Shown: piece by piece, positions 15,757-25,932 of the stretch
How the letters are laid out: each line of letters begins with the position of its first letter
How positions within the stretch are numbered: the stretch's first letter is position 1
Assembly: GCA_021163845.1 (NCBI GenBank)
Contig: JAGGTH010000039.1
Span: 1 to 39,242 of the forward strand
Direction: 5' to 3'
From: Helicobacteraceae bacterium
GTDB taxonomy: Bacteria; Campylobacterota; Campylobacteria; Campylobacterales; Sulfurimonadaceae
DNA: 39,242 nucleotides
The notes under the pieces: model-generated
Told to the model about the DNA's origin: nothing
Databases searched by the model: none
What the model saw: the letters and a program-made list of their open reading frames with translations, nothing else
Made by a program: the position numbers and the translations under genes

Positions 15757-18495
15757 TCATACTTTGACAATCTTGATCTCCTCTTTGAGAAGATAGCAGA
15801 TATAACCATCAACCTCTTGGGATGTAATCGCTCTAATCGCGTTTTTATAATAGTTCACCTGCTGGTGATGCTCCTCTTGAAAGTTTAGAGAACTTTTATA
15901 GTCGATCACTGTGTATTGCACGCTTGCAAAGAGCGATTGAGGATCTTGGATCTCTTTTTTGACAAGCAGATCGATATAGCGAAGATTCTTTTTATATTTG
16001 AGTGCTTTTTCTTTCATACACTCCCCATCCACCAAGTCTAAGAACTCTTGATTTTTCAAAAGCATCTCCACACGCAAGCAGATATCATCGATCTCTTCAC
16101 TACTCAAAAGTGCCCCATATCTGTTTAAAAGCATATCTTTTGCATTGGCAATACAGCGTAGCTCAAAAGAGCTGAGCATCTCTAATATATAGTGCAGACC
16201 AAGACCAAAATGGATAGCACTCAGATCTTCCTCTTGCTCCTTTGCAAGTTCTAGGATGTCACTTTGTGTACCATAGTAAAGTGACTTGTATTGCAAGCTA
16301 GTTTGGGCGCGAGACGCCTCCTCAAGGCTGGGTTTACATACAAGTTTTCCCCTTGCTTTGGGTGTGAGCTCTAAAAGTTCAAAGGCAGAGTCTTTGGATT
16401 TGAGCAAGACAAAAAGGTTCTCCCTTGCGCGAGTAAAGGCAACATAGAGTGCATTGAGGTTATCCTCACGTGTGAGTTTTTTCTCTTTAGCAAGCGCATT
16501 CTCATAAGGCTTATCAAGAAGATCTCTCCCTTTGATACGCAAATATATCCCCTCTAACTCAATCCCATCGTACTCATAGATAATAGTGTCACGCGCAGGG
16601 GGAGCTTTTTTGAGTCTATCAAGCACTATAACGTGCTCATATTCAAGCCCTTTGGATTTGTGGATCGTAAGCACTCTCACACCTCTTAGATCCGATGCTG
16701 CACCGCTAAGGTCTAAGCGCTCATACTCAAATAACAAGGCTTCAATATCAGGATAAACACGTAGTGCGTCCAAGAAACGTATAAGATGAAACTCATCACT
16801 AAAGAGTTCATAACGCTCTATTGCATACTTGACTACATCCACAAGGAGCAAACTGTTTATATCTAGAAGTGCTAAAGGCTCAAGTTCTTGTTGGATGAGT
16901 GCAAAGAAATTGTAGCGATAGATATCCTCTTTAAAATATTGGTATTTGAGATACTCTAGCACCGCTTTGACACTTTGTTGATGGATAAGCTTGGTGGTTG
17001 TCTCAGTTACCACTTCGATCTTTTCATTCTCCAGAGCATTCTTGATCTCTTCACCATCGCCATTTGTCGCACACAGTATCGCTATTTCATTGATATCTGC
17101 CCCAAGATCTAGGAGTCTTTGAACTTGCGTTACACAGCACTCAAGAAGTGTGTCACAAGCGATTACTTCGACGTAGCCGCCTTGTGCTTCTTCTCTTGTT
17201 TTTTGTGGAAGATAATTTGTTATCTTATTCTCAAAGGTTCGATTGACAAACTCTATCACCTCTCTTTGGGAGCGGTAGTTTGTCAAAAGAGGTTCTACGC
17301 GCGTATGATTCTCAGATGCCACTTTAGCAAACAAGGCACTCACACCCCCACGAAAGCGATAGATAGATTGTTTTACATCCCCTACAAAAAAGAAACTCCC
17401 TTCTTCATTGACACCATTTCCAGAGACTATCTCAGTGATAAGTGGTTTTAAGATCTCATATTGCACAATACTTGTATCTTGAAACTCATCGAGCAAAATA
17501 TGCTCAATCTGTGCATCGAGACGAAAATATAAAAATTCACTATCGATGCGTTCCTTTAAGAGATAATACACAAGCATCGTCACATCATTAAAACTAAGCT
17601 CGCTATCATCCATATAGAGCGCTTTTTTTGATTTTTCATAGATATCTACAAGCTCTTTTAAGGCATAAAAAAAGTTCTGTTCACGTGCACGATATTGATT
17701 TTTGATCGCCTCTTGGATACGAGTGAGATATCGATCCATCTCAGGGGTATAGCACTTGGAATAGGTACGATAATTAAGCGTTTCTTTGCCCACCCAACTC
17801 TTTGCACAAAGCTCTTCAAAACTCTCTACATCCATACTCTTTTTGGCAGTCGCAGATGCTGCCTCGCATCCATTGACAAGTGCTTGCAACTCTTTGAGAT
17901 TTGCAAGAGCTTCCTCTTCATACAGAAAACTTTTTTGCTTGCTAAAAGCTATCGTTGAGAGTTCATGTTTTTTCGTATAAAGTGCATCTAGAAGGAAAAA
18001 GATGCTCTCAAGTCTCTTGCTTGATTCTAAAGAGAGTTGCAAGAGTATCTCCATTTTTCCAGCGACCGCGACCTCTTTTAAAAAGCGAGAGAGAAGCTTT
18101 CTCTCATGCTGTGAACTTTGTGTCGTAAAATCTGGCATCAAGGAGGTATAGAGTGAAAATTTACGAAGTATTTGGGTAAAGAACTTATCGATCGTCATGA
18201 TCTTAGTATTGGCATTTAAGAACTCTGAGAGGATCTTATCTCTTTGAGAAAGAAGCTCTGCTTTAGAGAGCCCAGTCACCTCAGAGATCACATCCAACTC
18301 CCCACGACTCTCAAGTGCTTCGAGTGTCGCGACGATACGCTCTTGCATCTCGTAAGCTGCTTTATTAGTAAAAGTAAGTGCGAGGATCTTACTCGGATGT
18401 GCCCCTAAAAAAAGGAGACTCAAATAACGCACCACCAACATAAAAGTTTTCCCGCTACCCGCACTCGCTTCGTAGGCTAAATTTTTCTCTAACAT
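15757..18495 (-). CDS. addA: AddA/RecB-like UvrD-type helicase-nuclease
   Basis: A 912-residue superfamily 1A helicase that, with the neighbouring AddB-like protein, should process double-strand DNA ends for RecA. Walker A is ASAGSGKT (10-17). Next come LALTFTNKAAYEM, the Walker B region LLDEFQDTS, GDVKQSIYRFRGG, LTNYRS, TIHKSKGLEYEH and the motif VI segment YVAFTRARENL. A C-terminal PD-(D/E)XK nuclease is suggested by YIDLLVKKE followed by VIDYKSS. I start at ATG 18495: it follows the addB stop by one base with AAGGG upstream, and brings Walker A near the N-terminus. A longer frame to 18579 would overlap addB by over 80 bases and adds nothing recognisable. Confidence 0.9.
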   Translation of the reverse strand: MLEKNLAYEASAGSGKTFMLVVRYLSLLFLGAHPSKILALTFTNKAAYEMQERIVATLEALESRGELDVISEVTGLSKAELLSQRDKILSEFLNANTKIMTIDKFFTQILRKFSLYTSLMPDFTTQSSQHERKLLSRFLKEVAVAGKMEILLQLSLESSKRLESIFFLLDALYTKKHELSTIAFSKQKSFLYEEEALANLKELQALVNGCEAASATAKKSMDVESFEELCAKSWVGKETLNYRTYSKCYTPEMDRYLTRIQEAIKNQYRAREQNFFYALKELVDIYEKSKKALYMDDSELSFNDVTMLVYYLLKERIDSEFLYFRLDAQIEHILLDEFQDTSIVQYEILKPLITEIVSGNGVNEEGSFFFVGDVKQSIYRFRGGVSALFAKVASENHTRVEPLLTNYRSQREVIEFVNRTFENKITNYLPQKTREEAQGGYVEVIACDTLLECCVTQVQRLLDLGADINEIAILCATNGDGEEIKNALENEKIEVVTETTTKLIHQQSVKAVLEYLKYQYFKEDIYRYNFFALIQQELEPLALLDINSLLLVDVVKYAIERYELFSDEFHLIRFLDALRVYPDIEALLFEYERLDLSGAASDLRGVRVLTIHKSKGLEYEHVIVLDRLKKAPPARDTIIYEYDGIELEGIYLRIKGRDLLDKPYENALAKEKKLTREDNLNALYVAFTRARENLFVLLKSKDSAFELLELTPKARGKLVCKPSLEEASRAQTSLQYKSLYYGTQSDILELAKEQEEDLSAIHFGLGLHYILEMLSSFELRCIANAKDMLLNRYGALLSSEEIDDICLRVEMLLKNQEFLDLVDGECMKEKALKYKKNLRYIDLLVKKEIQDPQSLFASVQYTVIDYKSSLNFQEEHHQQVNYYKNAIRAITSQEVDGYICYLLKEEIKIVKV

Positions 18496-18496
18496 C

Positions 18497-20842
18497 CTAA
18501 GCCCTTCCACAAAGCGTTGCAAACTCACAGTAGCTACAGGTTTTGAGATCTTCACACTGAGTAAACTCAAAACTCTCATGCATCAAGAGGTCTTTGATAT
18601 TGGATTCTAACACAGCAAGCTTCTCATTTAAAAAGCTCTCAGGAACGATTTTTAAACTTTTAAGATCATAATAGGCACACGAGACTGCGTTGCCAATATT
18701 ATGCGCTAAGAGATAATAAAATTCGAGTTGAAAATCGGTAGCCTCATGGAGATTTTTCTCTGTATAGAGTGGATAAGAACCCGTCTTATAATCTAAGACT
18801 AAAAGTTCCTCTCCTCGCTTATCGATTCTATCAATCTGACCTGTGAGAGTGAGCCCTGCAAATTCATACTCATAGCTTTGCTCACATCCCAACACTTCCC
18901 AGCCCTCATCAAAACGTTTGATCTCATGCTCACAAAAGGGGCGAAGTGATTTTTTATAAAGGGCTATTTGGTATTTTTCTAGTTCACTTTTTCCACATAC
19001 TAGATCTAAAGATCGTTCTAGCTCTTTGCTGAGATCTTCATAGCTTGAAAAGCTTTGCTTGTTTGTATAAAGAATACGCAGTGCTTCGTGTATACTCGTA
19101 CCGATCTCCCACTCTTGAGGCATATCTTTTGGGATCTCATGATCGCGAAGTGAAAGAATATAGCGATAATAGAACTTTCGTCTACACTCTAAAAAGGTTT
19201 TGAGCTTGGTTGCGGAGAGTTTTTTCTCTCTAAAATTATACGCTGCAACTACCTCTTGCTCCTCTTTTTTTATTCTTTTATGCGGAGTAAAAAGAAGATG
19301 CGCATAGGTATGCTCTTCATATCTATTCTTTGGCTCAATGCCGAGCTGTTTTAAAAAGCGTGAGGGGGCACTTTGCTGTGAAGCGACAAAACATATCGCA
19401 GCTTCTTTTGCGTTTCTCAAAAGAAGCTCATAGTAATGTTTTTGCAAGTTCTCTCTATCTGCCATGGTTGGAAGTTTTGCATTTTCTCGGATCTGTGTAT
19501 TTAAAAACATATCTTTTTGGCTTTTTTTTGGGACATTATTGTCACTAAAGTCTACAATAACAACTCCATCAAACTGTACAGCCCTCGTTTCAAGCACTCC
19601 AATGACGGTGATTTTTCCACCTCGTACATCATCTATTGTTCTGCCACTCAAGCGTTGCAAAAAGAGATGAAGTAAGGATTTGACACGCATATTTTGCATA
19701 AAAGGGAGAATCGTTTTAAAATGAAAGATCTCCTCTTCATAGATCTTTCGCTCTTGTTTACTTGCAATAGACTCGCTAAAACTGCTCATAATCGCTAAGA
19801 AATCTACATCCCAAGCCTCTTTTTTATAAAGAGGGAAAAACGCTTGATAATACTCATCTCCAAGCCTTTGAAGACGTGCAAGATTCTCTTTGGAATCATT
19901 TTCGATCGCTTGAGATGAGGCATGCAATTTTTGATAGATCTGCGTTGTTGCAAAAGATTCCCCCATCGCAAAGTTAAAGTTAGACTCTGTATCAAAACTT
20001 TTAAGTGTTTGTGCAAACTGTTCATCTGGAAGGATCACGGCTAGCTTGTGGGGAGCGTAACCTTTTTGTATAAACTCATAGATCTTGTGCTTGATAAATG
20101 CTACTTGCAACAAAGATTCACTCAGTGATTCACACTCAATGAGAGTCTCTTTTGTGAGAGATTTTTGCTCCAATATTTCGCTTGAATTGAGTGAGAGTTT
20201 GTAGTGAAAATTTGACATAAGATCAAAACCAAGCGCGCGAAACCTCTCTTGCATCTTTGCATTAAAACGTGTTGTCGCTAAAGATATCTCAACACTGCTA
20301 TACTCACTACATCTTTGGAGAATCTCTACCTCAAAATTAGTGAGATGCCCTACCACATGAAGTAAAATTTTAGGATGTGAATGAAGATACTCATAATTAA
20401 AAATATATTGCTTGGGAAGAAAGATTCTATCAAGTACCTTTCTCTCTTGGCAAAGTGCTTCGTAACGTTTATAGAGCTCTTGAAGAATAAGAATATGCTC
20501 CTCGTATTCTGCATACATATCTGCGGTATCTAGTAAAGAGATATCATACATCTCTGCACTGAGCTCTTCGAAAAATTTAAAAATATAACTTGCATTTTTT
20601 GTAAAAGTAAAAAAGTTTCGCTCTATTTGAAGTTTTGCGAAATTGGCAAAATCGGATGCTTCTAAAAGAAGAAGAACACGCGTATCATCATCTATATATT
20701 TCGTTTGTGGCACTATACAAAGTTTTGAAAGAAATTCAGACATTGTGATATAGTTTGGGAGGAAGAGTGTCTCTTCTTGGATTTGAAGTTGCTCATGACG
20801 TATAGCACGAGCAGAGGGAAGAATAATAGTTTGTGTATTCAT
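18497..20842 (-). CDS. addB: AddB-like PD-(D/E)XK exonuclease subunit
   Basis: A 781-residue partner of AddA in end resection. The C-terminal nuclease has GQIDRIDKRGEELLVLDYKTG, giving the Asp...Asp-Tyr-Lys catalytic pattern. An iron-sulfur cluster staple is indicated by one cysteine in LECRRKFYYRY ahead of the nuclease and three in the terminal CEDLKTCSYCEFATLCGRA. The N-terminal part is a degenerate helicase-like region with poor Walker motifs, as in other AddB proteins. It lies 9 bases after fixH, so addBA may be transcribed with the cco cluster. A RexB-type name would be equally acceptable. Confidence 0.87.
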   Translation of the reverse strand: MNTQTIILPSARAIRHEQLQIQEETLFLPNYITMSEFLSKLCIVPQTKYIDDDTRVLLLLEASDFANFAKLQIERNFFTFTKNASYIFKFFEELSAEMYDISLLDTADMYAEYEEHILILQELYKRYEALCQERKVLDRIFLPKQYIFNYEYLHSHPKILLHVVGHLTNFEVEILQRCSEYSSVEISLATTRFNAKMQERFRALGFDLMSNFHYKLSLNSSEILEQKSLTKETLIECESLSESLLQVAFIKHKIYEFIQKGYAPHKLAVILPDEQFAQTLKSFDTESNFNFAMGESFATTQIYQKLHASSQAIENDSKENLARLQRLGDEYYQAFFPLYKKEAWDVDFLAIMSSFSESIASKQERKIYEEEIFHFKTILPFMQNMRVKSLLHLFLQRLSGRTIDDVRGGKITVIGVLETRAVQFDGVVIVDFSDNNVPKKSQKDMFLNTQIRENAKLPTMADRENLQKHYYELLLRNAKEAAICFVASQQSAPSRFLKQLGIEPKNRYEEHTYAHLLFTPHKRIKKEEQEVVAAYNFREKKLSATKLKTFLECRRKFYYRYILSLRDHEIPKDMPQEWEIGTSIHEALRILYTNKQSFSSYEDLSKELERSLDLVCGKSELEKYQIALYKKSLRPFCEHEIKRFDEGWEVLGCEQSYEYEFAGLTLTGQIDRIDKRGEELLVLDYKTGSYPLYTEKNLHEATDFQLEFYYLLAHNIGNAVSCAYYDLKSLKIVPESFLNEKLAVLESNIKDLLMHESFEFTQCEDLKTCSYCEFATLCGRA

Positions 20843-20851
20843 ATACAGGAC

Positions 20852-21358
20852 TTAATATTCCTGTATATCTTTATAGCGTGTATCTGCTTTAAAATTATAA
20901 AATCGACTTAGATCATCGATATCAATTTTCGCCATTATATCCCATCTTCCCTCTTGTGGAAGCTTGATCGAGGAGAAAGTGTAAACTCCATTTTCTTCAG
21001 TAGGTGCACTAAATTCTTGATCATGCTTATGATTATTTGGTCTCGTTACAACCACTTTTATCCGCGCGTTTTCTACGGGATTTCCCTTAATATCTGTGAG
21101 TTTATACTTCAAAGTCGTATTCTCTGAAGATATCCCTTGATTGATATATTCAATTTTATATTTATTATCAAATGCTATCTGCGACTCTATTAGTTCATTT
21201 GCTGTAGCATCTGCTTGATGATAATTCATCATATACGTGTCACTTGCCTCTACAGGCATCTTACTTGTCACTATAATTGTCGCAACACATGCACCAAAGA
21301 TAAACAGAATGGACGCACCAATTGCATAGGGCCAAGCTCTTCCACTACTTAGATTCAT
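20852..21358 (-). CDS. fixH: FixH-family protein
   Basis: A 168-residue membrane-anchored protein: one transmembrane helix (about 11-31) and a periplasmic beta-sandwich with KYKLTDIKGNPVENARIKVVV and GRWDIMAKI, as in FixH/YtkA-like domains. FixH proteins are linked to cbb3 oxidase assembly, perhaps copper delivery (established association; mechanism uncertain). The start overlaps the end of the upstream TPM-like gene by 14 bases. Context at the end of the ccoNOQP cluster agrees well with this call. Confidence 0.83.
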   Translation of the reverse strand: MNLSSGRAWPYAIGASILFIFGACVATIIVTSKMPVEASDTYMMNYHQADATANELIESQIAFDNKYKIEYINQGISSENTTLKYKLTDIKGNPVENARIKVVVTRPNNHKHDQEFSAPTEENGVYTFSSIKLPQEGRWDIMAKIDIDDLSRFYNFKADTRYKDIQEY

Positions 21359-22049
21359 TTTTTTGCCTTCTTAGGTAAAGTTTTCTTTTGATATAAAGAA
21401 ATATACCATAAATTATCATTCCATAAAACAACAACTTCACAATGAAAATACTATATTTATTTGCATTTCCTGCAGCATTTTCAAGAACCACACCTTTAGT
21501 GTCTGCAATCTGCTCTGCAATATCAACGTATCCGTTATACATCGAACCTGAATACTTCCCTATCTGCTGGTTATCTTTTGCTTTTTGTGCTAATAGTGGC
21601 AAGATAGTCCCACCTGACGAGCTTGCTATCTCTTTAAAACTTGCAAAACTATCACTATAAAAAAGTGCCATAATAAATGCTTGTAGACTGGAAGCAACGG
21701 GACTTAGTACCTGTTTTTTATCAAAATATTCATATAAAGAAGTATCATTTGCCAAAATATCAACTTTTGAATCAAGCTCTGCAAAAGTCAATAATATTGT
21801 TGGCTCTTTCATTTCAGCGATAAGCTCTTTTTCGTACTCTACGATACTTTTACCTTCTGGTAATTGACGAAGCATCACAAGGCGAAGAGATATACCTGTT
21901 TTTTGATACAGTTCTAAACCTAACTTCTCCACTTGAGTTGTAAAGTCTGGATTATGAACAACATCATCTTTATATAAATACGAAGCGACCAAAGTTGTTT
22001 GAAAAAATAAAATGAGGATGAGGGCCGCAAGCCCTCGTGAAAGTCTCAA
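21345..22049 (-). CDS. TPM-domain-like membrane protein in the cco cluster
   Basis: A 234-residue protein with an N-terminal hydrophobic signal segment (about 7-23), a central soluble domain and one C-terminal transmembrane helix (about 205-222) followed by a basic tail. The soluble part (LGLELYQKTGISLRLVMLRQ, then EPTILLTFAELDSKVDIL) resembles TPM/YgcG-type periplasmic domains: 'tG....v.....' followed by 'i.l......k..i'. The start is TTG at 22049, preceded by GGGGAG; no ATG is available nearby. The ribosome binding site immediately follows the stop of the 29-codon gene upstream. A role in cbb3 oxidase assembly is inferred from position only. Confidence 0.66.
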   Translation of the reverse strand: MRLSRGLAALILILFFQTTLVASYLYKDDVVHNPDFTTQVEKLGLELYQKTGISLRLVMLRQLPEGKSIVEYEKELIAEMKEPTILLTFAELDSKVDILANDTSLYEYFDKKQVLSPVASSLQAFIMALFYSDSFASFKEIASSSGGTILPLLAQKAKDNQQIGKYSGSMYNGYVDIAEQIADTKGVVLENAAGNANKYSIFIVKLLFYGMIIYGIFLYIKRKLYLRRQKNESK

Positions 22050-22060
22050 AGAAACTCCCC

Positions 22061-22150
22061 TTAACCGATAAAAAGGTGATTAGGTGTTACCACCGCGTAA
22101 AGTGTATATGCAGCCATAACTACAAGGCCCCAAGAAATAATTTTTTCCAT
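22061..22150 (-). CDS. 29-residue single-helix membrane protein in the cco cluster
   Basis: A very short gene between the DUF4006 and TPM-like genes. It starts at ATG 22150, with AAAGGA eight bases upstream, and stops at TAA 22061-22063. The product begins MEKIISWGLVVMAAYTLYAV and ends TPNHLFIG, so nearly all of it is one hydrophobic helix. It fills an otherwise unexplained 111-base gap in a densely packed operon, and its stop joins directly to the GGGGAG of the next gene. It could be an extra small subunit or assembly factor of the cbb3 oxidase, comparable in kind to CcoS, CcoQ or CcoM, but no homology is claimed. Confidence 0.65.
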   Translation of the reverse strand: MEKIISWGLVVMAAYTLYAVVTPNHLFIG

Positions 22151-22160
22151 AATATATCCT

Positions 22161-22373
22161 TTACTTCACATCAACTAGATGTTTTTTTGCACTTTCAGTG
22201 TCAAACATTCTAATTGAGCTTTCATCTTTTATCTCATAAAAGTTAGTTGCACTTGCATTTTGCACATTTATTCCCCAGATAGTTAAACCTACGAGAATAC
22301 TGAGCAAAAGGACAGTTGCAATCAACATACCTGTTATACCATCAAGAACAAATACGCCTCTATTTTCATTCAT
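22161..22373 (-). CDS. DUF4006 family small membrane protein
   Basis: A 70-residue protein with one transmembrane helix (about 13-35: MLIATVLLLSILVGLTIWGI). I start at ATG 22373 because AAGGAG lies a few bases upstream and the product begins MNENRGVFVLDGITG, the DUF4006-like opening. A longer in-frame start at 22415 would add 14 residues overlapping ccoP. DUF4006 genes occur next to ccoP in Campylobacterota. Function is not established, but position suggests part of cbb3 oxidase assembly or structure. Confidence 0.8.
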   Translation of the reverse strand: MNENRGVFVLDGITGMLIATVLLLSILVGLTIWGINVQNASATNFYEIKDESSIRMFDTESAKKHLVDVK

Positions 22374-22383
22374 ACCTGTCTCC

Positions 22384-23310
22384 TTACTTACTGCTAATGC
22401 TTGTAATATAAGCACCTACAGCTTCTTTTTGCTTGTCGTTAAGTTTATCAAACTTAGGCATAGCACCGATCGCGCCTTTTTTACCATGGTTAAGAACATT
22501 TACAACAAGCTCTGGAGTGAACTCAGCAATATTAGGAGCTACATACTCCATCCCTTTGCCATCAGCACCGTGACATGAAGCACATACGCCTTCAAATACA
22601 TCTGCACCAGCGCCAGTCATACCATTCGCAACATATTTAGACACGAGATCTATTTCCGCATCCGTAATCATCTCATTCGTATTTGCGTTAAAGAGTCCGT
22701 TACGATCTGGCATTGGCATCTCTGTACCTAAAAGATGATTATTTGCGCCATTGATAATCGCATGTTTTACAACTTTTTCTTCCAGTCTTACGTTAAGATT
22801 AGCAGCTTTTCCATCAATTCCATCAGCTTGAAGTCCATGACAAACTTTACACTCAGCCAAGAATACTGATTCACCCATATCTACAAGTCTCTCACCAGTA
22901 ATATCAGCATATTTTGCTTCAAATTTCTCGTTGTGAGCTTTTGTATCTTCATTGTATTCACCAATTTGTGAATATGCATTGACTGGATAACCGATTGTGA
23001 AGTACCACATACCCCAAATCATTGTTCCCAGAAACATAATAGCCCAACCCATCGGTACGCTATTTTTATACTCGCCTATGCCGTCCCAGCTATGATCTAC
23101 CAATTCACCATCAGCAGTATCTGTTTGCATTTGACGTACATATTTGATGACAACAAACACAGTAATAATTACAAGTGCAACAGCACCTGCAACCGCTAAC
23201 ATGTTTACGATATCATCATTTAAACCACCTTCGGAACCTCCAACAGACAAATATGTTAGAAGTAACATAACAGCAGCAAAGATAATTCCCCAAAGATAAA
23301 GCTTATTCAT
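22384..23310 (-). CDS. ccoP: cbb3-type cytochrome c oxidase subunit III (di-haem)
   Basis: A 308-residue subunit that accepts electrons from soluble cytochrome c and passes them to CcoO. It has two N-terminal transmembrane helices (about 5-22 and 36-56), and a third hydrophobic stretch at 88-106 in the N-terminal FixP-like region. Two haem c sites, CKVCH (154-158) and CASCH (243-247), follow in the periplasmic part, with methionine ligand candidates in EMPMPD (198-202) and GAMPKF. It is the fourth gene of ccoN-O-Q-P, 9 bases after ccoQ, with a clear GGAGA before the ATG. Confidence 0.96.
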   Translation of the reverse strand: MNKLYLWGIIFAAVMLLLTYLSVGGSEGGLNDDIVNMLAVAGAVALVIITVFVVIKYVRQMQTDTADGELVDHSWDGIGEYKNSVPMGWAIMFLGTMIWGMWYFTIGYPVNAYSQIGEYNEDTKAHNEKFEAKYADITGERLVDMGESVFLAECKVCHGLQADGIDGKAANLNVRLEEKVVKHAIINGANNHLLGTEMPMPDRNGLFNANTNEMITDAEIDLVSKYVANGMTGAGADVFEGVCASCHGADGKGMEYVAPNIAEFTPELVVNVLNHGKKGAIGAMPKFDKLNDKQKEAVGAYITSISSK

Positions 23311-23319
23311 ATATCTCTC

Positions 23320-23523
23320 CTATTTCTCTTTATCGTCTGATACCGCTGATACAGGAGTATCAGTGATATCATCTTTTAGCGCCATATTGCTATAATCTTC
23401 ATAATCATGACCATCAGCATCTTTCTTTTTTGAATACAAATGATAAATATACCCATAAAGTACCACTACTAAAGTAGCAGTTAATGCAAAATACCCATAA
23501 GCTTGTAATTCAGCAATATCCAC
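23320..23523 (-). CDS. ccoQ: cbb3-type cytochrome c oxidase subunit IV
   Basis: A 67-residue small subunit with one transmembrane helix (about 9-31), then a charged tail (YSKKKDADGHDYEDYSNM). CcoQ helps stabilise the CcoP-CcoNO complex (established for proteobacteria). It sits between ccoO and ccoP, 9-13 bases from each. Slightly longer than the 50-60 residues common in Proteobacteria but normal for Campylobacterota. Confidence 0.9.
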   Translation of the reverse strand: MDIAELQAYGYFALTATLVVVLYGYIYHLYSKKKDADGHDYEDYSNMALKDDITDTPVSAVSDDKEK

Positions 23524-23536
23524 TTTAAAACCTTTA

Positions 23537-24229
23537 CTATTTCAGACTATTCATATATGCAATAATAGCTACTATCTCAGGGATCTCACCACGAGCTACT
23601 GCATCTTTGACATCTTGATCTTTCATATCAGCTACTATCTCTTTTGCTTCTGCTAAAGCTAATGCCCTAGCTTCTGCAAGATTTTTACCCATTTTTACAA
23701 TTTTTGTTGAACCGTCTTTCATAGGAACTGGTTCATTATAAGGTACAGAGAATGCATTTGCAACTGTTAATTGCTCTGCATAAGCAGTATCAACATCAGC
23801 ATTATTTGTAAACATCCATTTATATGCTGGCATAATAGAACCAGGTACTACAGATGCTGGGTCTTTCATATGGTTTTCATGCCAGTCAGTTGTACGGTAG
23901 TTTCCTACACGCATCAAGTCTGGACCAGTTCTTTTAGAACCCCAAAGAAAAGGACGATCATACGCGTACTCACCACTTAAAGAGTAGTGACCATAACGAT
24001 CAGTCTCTGATTTAAATGGGCGCACTAACTGTGAGTGACAAGCATTACAGCTGTTTTTAATATAAACGTGACGACCCGCTAATTCTAAAGTAGAATATGG
24101 AGCAGTTCCGATTACAGGACGAGATGCTTGAGCAAAGTTTGGAAGAATTTCAATCAAACCTGCAAACGCAATTGTTACAAATACACCTACCGCAAAAAAG
24201 AACGGATGTTTTTCTAACCAATGAAACAT
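23537..24229 (-). CDS. ccoO: cbb3-type cytochrome c oxidase subunit II (mono-haem)
   Basis: A 230-residue subunit anchored by one transmembrane helix (about 11-30). A haem c site, CNACHSQ, is at 61-67 and the axial methionine lies in PGSIMPAY. The opening FHWLEKHPFFFAVGVF and the ELAGRHVYIKNSCNACHSQ context are standard for CcoO. It transfers electrons from CcoP to the haem-copper centre of CcoN. It starts 15 bases after ccoN. Confidence 0.97.
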   Translation of the reverse strand: MFHWLEKHPFFFAVGVFVTIAFAGLIEILPNFAQASRPVIGTAPYSTLELAGRHVYIKNSCNACHSQLVRPFKSETDRYGHYSLSGEYAYDRPFLWGSKRTGPDLMRVGNYRTTDWHENHMKDPASVVPGSIMPAYKWMFTNNADVDTAYAEQLTVANAFSVPYNEPVPMKDGSTKIVKMGKNLAEARALALAEAKEIVADMKDQDVKDAVARGEIPEIVAIIAYMNSLK

Positions 24230-24244
24230 ATTTTATCCTTTCTA

Positions 24245-25723
24245 TTAAGCGCCCATAGGCGAAGCATTTTGTAGCTCAGACTCTTCAACAGGACGAGCAG
24301 ACATAGTTTTATAGATGTTGTAAGCAAACATCAAGAAACCAACTAAGTATAAAAGACCACCAACACCACGAATTGTATAGTATGGATGTAATACAGTTAC
24401 AGTATCGATAAATGAGTAAGCAAGGTTACCAAATTCATCGTGAGCACGCCACATCATACCTTGAGTGATACCTGCAATCCACATTGAAGTGAAGTAAAGC
24501 ACAACACCCAAAGTTTGAATCCAGAATTGTGTAGCCATAAGTGACTTTGAATAGATCTCACGCTTAAATACACGTGGAGCCATATGGAAAAGTGAAGCCA
24601 TGATCATGAATCCAACCCAACCAAGTACACCATCGTGAACGTGACCAACGATCCAGTCTGTAAAGTGAGCGATTGCATTTACTGATTTGATAGCTTGGAT
24701 AGGACCTTCTAATGTTGAGAACATATAGAATGTAGAAGCAAGAATCATAAACTTAATCAGTGGAGATGCTGCAACTTGTTGCCATTCACCCTTCATTGTA
24801 AGAAGCATATTGATCGCTGAACCCCAAGATGGAAGAATCAAGATAACAGAGAAGATAGACCCCATTGTCTGCATCCAATCAGGAACAGTTGAATAAAGTA
24901 AGTGGTGTCCACCAGCCCATAAATAAACAAACATTAGACCCCAAAAAGAGAGTAACGACAATTTATATGAATAGATAGCTTGACCAGATTCTTTTGGTAA
25001 AAAGTAGTAAATCATTGCAACAATAGGCACTGTAAAACCAAATGCAACCGCATTGTGTCCATACCACCATTGTACTAATGCATCATTGGTACCAGCATAC
25101 ATAGAAACTGAATGCCACCATGAACCAATTCCACCAGAAGCAAAGTATGTTGGAATTTCCATATTGTTAAAAAGGTAAAGCATAGCTATACCTAAGAATG
25201 TAGCAATATAATACCAAATAGAGATATAAAGTGATTTTTCACGGCGAATACCGATTAAACCAAAAAGACCCATACCCCACAGTACCCAGACAACTACTAC
25301 AGCAATATCAATAGGCCATTCAAATTCAGCATACTCTTTTGAAGTTGTAATACCCATAAAAAGAGTTACTACAACTGCAGCAACAACAATAAGATACAAC
25401 CAAAAATGTAGTTTACCTAAAAACATCAATAGACCTGACTCCGCCATTGATACCTTTAATACACGCTGACCAACATAATACCAAGTAGCAAAAATACCAC
25501 TTAAAGTAAACCCAAAAATAACTGCATCAGTATGCAGCGGACGAAGACGACTAAAGTTAGTATATTCAGCTAACCCCTCACCAAGAATTGTATTAACACT
25601 TGGGAAAGCAAGTTGAAATGCTAAAATTACACCGATGAGCATACCAACAATCCCTAAAACGATTGTTGTGAACATGAACATCTTTGCAACTGTATAGTCG
25701 TACTCTAATGGACGATTCTCCAT
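24245..25723 (-). CDS. ccoN: cbb3-type cytochrome c oxidase subunit I
   Basis: A 492-residue catalytic subunit reducing O2 with high affinity and pumping protons, with about 12 membrane helices. Haem and CuB histidines appear in RPLHTDAV, WWYGHNAVAF, GGHHLLYS and DWIVGHVHDGVLGW. I choose ATG 25723 because AAGGAGG lies a few bases upstream and the product then begins MENRPLEYDYTVAK like homologues. An upstream in-frame start at 25801 would run through a probable leader region. First gene of the ccoNOQP cluster; a 9-bp inverted repeat lies just upstream. It is the high-affinity terminal oxidase expected for microaerobic life. Confidence 0.98.
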   Translation of the reverse strand: MENRPLEYDYTVAKMFMFTTIVLGIVGMLIGVILAFQLAFPSVNTILGEGLAEYTNFSRLRPLHTDAVIFGFTLSGIFATWYYVGQRVLKVSMAESGLLMFLGKLHFWLYLIVVAAVVVTLFMGITTSKEYAEFEWPIDIAVVVVWVLWGMGLFGLIGIRREKSLYISIWYYIATFLGIAMLYLFNNMEIPTYFASGGIGSWWHSVSMYAGTNDALVQWWYGHNAVAFGFTVPIVAMIYYFLPKESGQAIYSYKLSLLSFWGLMFVYLWAGGHHLLYSTVPDWMQTMGSIFSVILILPSWGSAINMLLTMKGEWQQVAASPLIKFMILASTFYMFSTLEGPIQAIKSVNAIAHFTDWIVGHVHDGVLGWVGFMIMASLFHMAPRVFKREIYSKSLMATQFWIQTLGVVLYFTSMWIAGITQGMMWRAHDEFGNLAYSFIDTVTVLHPYYTIRGVGGLLYLVGFLMFAYNIYKTMSARPVEESELQNASPMGA

Positions 25724-25755
25724 ATATAGCCTCCTTAAAGTTTCAAAGCAATTAT

Positions 25756-25785
25756 GTCTAAATAAAATTTTTGTACTATTTAGAC
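25756..25785. promoter_or_regulatory. Inverted repeat upstream of ccoN
   Basis: GTCTAAATA at 25756-25764 is exactly complementary to TATTTAGAC at 25777-25785, separated by 12 bases. It lies 33-62 bases before the ccoN ATG. It could be a dimeric regulator site or a leader-RNA hairpin. Which regulator would bind is unknown; the motif does not match FNR (TTGAT-N4-ATCAA). Confidence 0.45.
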
Positions 25786-25932
25786 TAATTAACACTGTCA
25801 TAATATCAATACAAAAGTTTAAACAATCTTAATTTCTTAACACTTTTGTAACAAATCATTATTTTTTTGTTTACTTTTTATATTTTATATTTACTTAAGA
25901 TTTTTCTTTGTTTTGTTTTAAAAGAGGAAGTG

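Follow-up and report, generated by a model that had tools for sequence, protein, structure and literature searches.

The window, by which we mean the whole stretch of 39,242 nucleotides analysed here, carries on its minus strand a cbb3 oxidase operon in the order ccoN, ccoO, ccoQ, ccoP, ccoX (DUF4006), ccoY, ccoZ (TPM-type) and fixH/ccoH; all window coordinates below refer to features of that strand. The first gene, ccoN (24245-25801), exceeds the TIGR00780 cut-off at 24257-25705; its start codon is provisional, and the ORF list gives it 518 aa. It is followed by ccoO (23537-24229), named by position and sequence within the order ccoNOQP, by ccoQ (23320-23523), which matches FixQ and lies above the cut-off of TIGR02736, and by ccoP (22384-23310), the dihaem cytochrome c subunit with FixP_N and Cytochrome_CBB3 domains. 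Then comes ccoX (22161-22373), which scores 97.2 bits against Pfam PF13179 (cut-off 22), with DUF4006 matched at 22185-22373; we infer an ATG start for it, and the ORF list has a longer version with a GTG start. Beyond the gene of interest lie ccoZ (21345-22049), 234 codons from a TTG start at 22049 and encoding a TPM-fold protein, and ccoH/fixH (20852-21358; Pfam FixH 46.9 bits, cut-off 23), which overlaps the end of ccoZ. Downstream of ccoH, at 15757-20842, are two frames of 940 and 781 codons that, by their look, we presume to be AddA/AddB-type helicase-nuclease subunits.

The space between ccoX and ccoZ is 111 nt long and is occupied by ccoY (22061-22150), a frame that runs from an ATG at 22150 through 29 codons to a TAA at 22063-22061. 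Its product, MEKIISWGLVVMAAYTLYAVVTPNHLFIG, is a single-helix membrane protein whose hydropathy peaks over the 19-residue stretch 4-22 (mean Kyte-Doolittle 1.82). A Shine-Dalgarno motif, AAAGGA (22157-22162), overlaps the stop of ccoX and is separated from the ATG by 6 nt; the Shine-Dalgarno of ccoZ, GGGGAG (22055-22060), follows directly on the ccoY TAA. A first-pass annotation had proposed a one-helix membrane gene of this length here, with a good ribosome binding site, a close fit to the gap in the cluster and a stop joined to the next Shine-Dalgarno, and each of these points is borne out. It was mistaken in taking fixH as the next gene, as the whole of ccoZ intervenes.

Length alone is weak evidence for such a gene, because mononucleotide shuffling of the 111-nt gap, repeated 20,000 times, gave a frame of 29 codons or more at the same place in 851 cases, and 101 frames of at least 20 aa overlap the 7-kb stretch considered. 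Conservation settles the case. A search with the window protein alone matched 31 of 41 genomes, and all 25 genomes of the same genus, its own included, matched at E values of 3e-15 to 3e-5. Six of the ten non-matching genomes (G025, G030, G031, G032, G037 and G038) have a frame in the corresponding position after ccoX; in G026, G033, G036 and G039 neither DUF4006 nor ccoN was found above cut-off. A wider census comprised 182 sequences, the window and 181 loci, with 80 of 291 relatives taken from one search. A ccoX was recognized by profile in 171 of them, which reduce to 150 distinct loci when sequences identical over 310 nt, and no others, are merged; the 11 excluded for want of ccoX were one locus in which ccoG separates ccoX from ccoY (L021) and ten sub-threshold chance matches (L092-L101). 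A frame of at least 22 codons follows ccoX in 149 of the 150 distinct loci, the sole exception (L117) being a sequence that ends 65 nt after ccoX. These frames are most often 33 aa (66 loci) or 29 aa (47 loci) long, and 138 of the 149 have a Shine-Dalgarno-like motif upstream. One iteratively built profile matches 141 of them at E < 1e-3, where E-values apply to the small set of 177 candidate frames from which the profile itself was built; the remaining eight, at the same place after ccoX, are one-helix frames of greater length and divergent sequence.

The pattern of change within the frame is that of a protein-coding sequence. Pooled over 47 distinct sequences of 29 codons, pS is 0.62 against a pN of 0.20, and mismatches at codon positions 1, 2 and 3 stand at 0.26, 0.15 and 0.50; of the 47, 46 are closed in the +1 frame and 25 in the +2 frame. 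The earlier annotation had named lack of conservation in relatives and frameshifts inside the frame as grounds against the gene, and neither was seen. That ccoY is a chance open frame, a reading favoured by the shuffles that equal its length, is refuted by the retention of place, length and sequence in all but one of the distinct loci, and we give it next to no weight. It is also very improbable that the frame is a translated leader whose sole role is to carry ribosomes into ccoZ. The abutment of the ccoY stop on the ccoZ Shine-Dalgarno would suit such a coupling peptide, as would the fact that 33 of the 149 listed ccoY starts overlap, at offsets of -4 or -1, the stop codon of ccoX, but a peptide of this kind needs no conserved residues, whereas the low pN relative to pS and the conserved C-terminal tail indicate selection at the level of the protein. 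The ccoY frame is therefore a real gene under protein-like codon change.

The tail in question reads V-L/V-T-P-N-H-L-F/Y-I/V-G, with V-L-T-P-N-H-L-F-I/V-G as the majority form. Among the 149 proteins, the last G is kept in 137, the L in 139, the N in 129 and the H in 122, and TPNHL as a unit in 80, such that the motif is common without being universal. In one locus of the same genus (L023, genome G016), VTIGQAVLVG replaces VTPNHLFIG and the helix is kept; the motif is also lost in the members of families f9 and f14 that were examined. As the tail histidine is not universal, it is unlikely to be an essential haem or copper ligand. The basic residues of CcoY sit at its N-terminus, which suggests an N-in orientation with a periplasmic tail.

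Several lines connect this frame to a small gene of Campylobacter jejuni. There, cj1486c-cj1485c-cj1484c-cj1483c correspond to ccoX (DUF4006), ccoY, ccoZ (TPM and DUF5130) and ccoH (PMC8267372), and CcoY, named in 2021, is a one-helix protein of 33 residues (PMC8267372). Of the four primers published in that study, three match locus L043 (genome G133) with 0 mismatches and the other one with two. The peptide KALEYLIV, encoded by one of these primers, lies near the N-terminus of a 33-aa frame in the right place in that locus, MSKALEYLIVIGLVAAAAITAWSVLTVNHLHIG. The exact matches of three of four primers identify L043 as C. jejuni or something very near it. Elsewhere, a first C. jejuni primer used as a pattern matches one genome of genus g11, at a site 277 nt past ccoX in the direction of ccoP, and a second primer, at no more than one mismatch, 0 of 49 genomes of genus g24. 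The window protein is 52% identical to the L043 protein, and the two share one profile (E 8e-23 and 4e-17, respectively). They agree further in the gene order ccoP-ccoX-ccoY-ccoZ-ccoH, in size class and in having a single helix, and differ in that the window protein has 29 rather than 33 residues, lacking four at the N-terminus, and ends in TPNHLFIG where the C. jejuni-type protein has TVNHLHIG. Given the gene order, the primer-matched frame and the degree of identity, the window frame is, as judged from sequence, ccoY itself in another lineage, orthologous to the small gene already known from C. jejuni.

What is known of its function comes from that organism. Deletion of ccoX or ccoH abolishes oxidase activity, deletion of ccoY or ccoZ lowers it significantly without abolishing it, and copper does not restore activity in the deletions (PMC8267372). 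The deletion cassettes were designed such that polar effects were minimised, not excluded (PMC8267372), and we saw no sign that the ccoY deletion had been complemented genetically, the word 'complementation' occurring 0 times in the main text of that paper. Mass spectrometry of native-gel bands, as described there, recovered nine Qcr and oxidase proteins with CcoY not among them (PMC8267372). On that ground its membership of the complex is only putative, and a hydrophobic protein of 33 aa is easily missed by the technique. The authors count the role of CcoX, CcoY and CcoZ among the major unanswered questions (PMC8267372). In other work, cj1485c is listed as a down-regulated 'putative periplasmic protein' (PMC7099621), and Cj1485 is not named in the main text of a C. 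jejuni small-protein census (PMC11955535). Our searches of the open-licence literature brought up nothing on ccoY in species other than C. jejuni.

The distribution of ccoY is much wider than we have seen described. Of 298 genomes searched across the class, 286 have DUF4006 above cut-off and 280 a match to the CcoY profile. Some weak matches (family f14, E near 0.005) may have arisen by chance, and adjacency to ccoX was checked only where the locus sequence was also in the census. All 12 genomes without DUF4006 lack a CcoY match. In a test of ccoN confined to 17 genomes, that gene was absent from 11 of these 12, and in the twelfth (G259) the contig with ccoN ends 1.8 kb after it. The remaining six genomes unmatched by CcoY each have ccoX together with a one-helix frame of 33-36 codons, preceded by a Shine-Dalgarno, in the right place. 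Present also in loci of C. jejuni (for example, L111) and Campylobacter coli (L104 and L106), ccoY is missing together with ccoN and ccoX from two near-complete genomes, G205 and G240, of genus g30 in the Campylobacter-containing family f11. At G063:C1:1997604-1997702 there is a CcoY profile match with one internal TAA, which probably runs upstream of the true start. A sample of 61 genomes taken from the phylum fell entirely within the same order, and the distribution given here is thus that within the class.

No Pfam or NCBIfam model describes this protein. The window CcoY matched 0 Pfam families, and when it and 33 relatives were compared with Pfam and NCBIfam, isolated chance-level matches were all that appeared, with no fitting family. 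CcoQ/FixQ is likewise a small one-helix protein of the same operon, but FixQ (PF05545) was matched by neither the window CcoY nor the 33 other members, and a separate ccoQ is present at 23320-23523; that identity is rejected. CioY of C. jejuni and CydX of Escherichia coli resemble CcoY as short one-helix partners encoded beside a terminal oxidase. In genome G133, however, the CcoY profile has a single hit. CioY and CydX serve a bd-type oxidase from another operon, and the encoding of ccoY with ccoNOQP rather than with cydAB/cioAB genes speaks against its membership of that group. Among all PDB chains, the CcoY profile found only 6bhp_A, at a chance-level E of 0.25, and the best match of ccoX was an uninformative one to MerF (E 0.17); these searches returned no Campylobacterota cbb3 oxidase structure with a CcoY chain.

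The neighbouring ccoZ is nearly as constant as ccoY, being found in 148 of the 150 distinct loci; the two without it (L117 and L154) extend only 65 and 359 nt after ccoX. Although the Pfam TPM domain in the window ccoZ falls below cut-off (E 0.013), an iterated profile joins it to the L043 ccoZ at E 5.2e-60. A predicted model of the window protein (mean pLDDT 92.5, pTM 0.80) matches TPM-fold structures at Z 11-16, among them 7tbr (Z 15.4, rmsd 2.2, 123 aligned), the photosystem II assembly factor Psb32 (8c7i; Z 14.3, rmsd 2.6, 128 aligned) and chains of the mycobacterial bcc:aa3 supercomplex, 8hcr_J (Z 12.3, rmsd 2.4, 111 aligned) and 6hwh_O (Z 11.8, rmsd 2.5, 113 aligned). The model agrees with the structural likeness reported earlier for C. 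jejuni CcoZ (PMC8267372). The protein is thus predicted to share the TPM fold, and a shared fold is no proof of a shared role. PADLOC returned nothing for ccoZ. A natural rearrangement bears on the relation between ccoY and ccoZ: in three genomes, chosen for ccoX and ccoY coordinates lying apart, a frame of 478-489 codons, which from a motif we take to be ccoG, stands between ccoX and ccoY (G027, locus L194, 3387-5884; G062, L196; and G089, L197). In all three, ccoY is intact and still adjoins ccoZ, which argues that ccoY is not mere filler after ccoX and that ccoY and ccoZ behave like a pair.

We consider it very probable that CcoY, as the orthologue of the C. jejuni protein, serves the cbb3 oxidase as a single-pass subunit with an accessory or assembly role. 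The first-pass annotation had proposed a new small subunit or assembly peptide; the functional half of that proposal fits the C. jejuni deletion phenotype, and the novelty does not stand, the gene having been named ccoY in 2021 (PMC8267372). CcoY would be translated within the cbb3 operon immediately after ccoX and immediately before ccoZ and would span the inner membrane once. Its helix (approximately residues 4-22) may pack against the oxidase or against CcoX, CcoH or CcoZ, with the conserved tail placed at the periplasmic edge near the haem c domains. There it might stabilise the assembled oxidase, or the joining of the oxidase with CcoZ, and so allow full activity, and it could either stay in the finished enzyme or help only in assembly.

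These last two options give the accessory-subunit reading its sharper forms. The better of them, to which we assign a little under an even chance, makes CcoY a permanent structural subunit like CcoM or CydX, with its helix in a CcoN/CcoP groove. CcoM of the Pseudomonas stutzeri cbb3 oxidase is likewise a tiny one-helix protein, of 36 aa (PMC10433244), and the strict presence of ccoY with ccoX and the partial loss of activity on its deletion in C. jejuni (PMC8267372) are consistent with a structural place; however, CcoM is needed for stability and not for activity (PMC8267372), whereas deletion of ccoY lowers activity. Weighing against a permanent subunit are the failure of mass spectrometry to detect CcoY with the C. 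jejuni oxidase (PMC8267372) and the lack of a match between the CcoY profile and PDB chains, although the library searched contained the cbb3 entry 5djq and, we assume, the CcoM chain. The other form, a serious candidate that we hold somewhat short of even, sees CcoY as a pure assembly factor or partner of CcoZ that is absent from the finished core enzyme. It draws on the fact that ccoY stays next to ccoZ when ccoG has come between it and ccoX, and on the same partial phenotype of the ccoY and ccoZ deletions, as against the abolished activity of the ccoX deletion (PMC8267372), but neighbourhood and phenotype are no proof of contact.

To the C. jejuni work the present analysis adds the class-wide occurrence of ccoY, its joint absence with ccoX, the gap in family models, the ccoG insertion and the TPM-fold model of ccoZ. 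What had been a gene named in one species thereby becomes a family with members in 280 of the 298 genomes sampled from its class. As neither Pfam nor NCBIfam has a model for CcoY, adding one would let gene finders see ccoY. Non-pathogenic Sulfurimonas or Sulfurospirillum strains would allow tests that use the conserved tail and the naturally occurring ccoG insertion as handles. A bolder reading, which we regard as unlikely, has CcoY and CcoZ acting throughout the Campylobacterota as a linker module between the cbb3 oxidase and the Qcr (bc) complex. In this scheme CcoZ would correspond, through its TPM fold, to the subunit of the mycobacterial supercomplex, and the helix of CcoY would clamp it in the membrane to the oxidase. 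Were it true, a bc-cbb3 supercomplex would be general in the class and not a peculiarity of C. jejuni.
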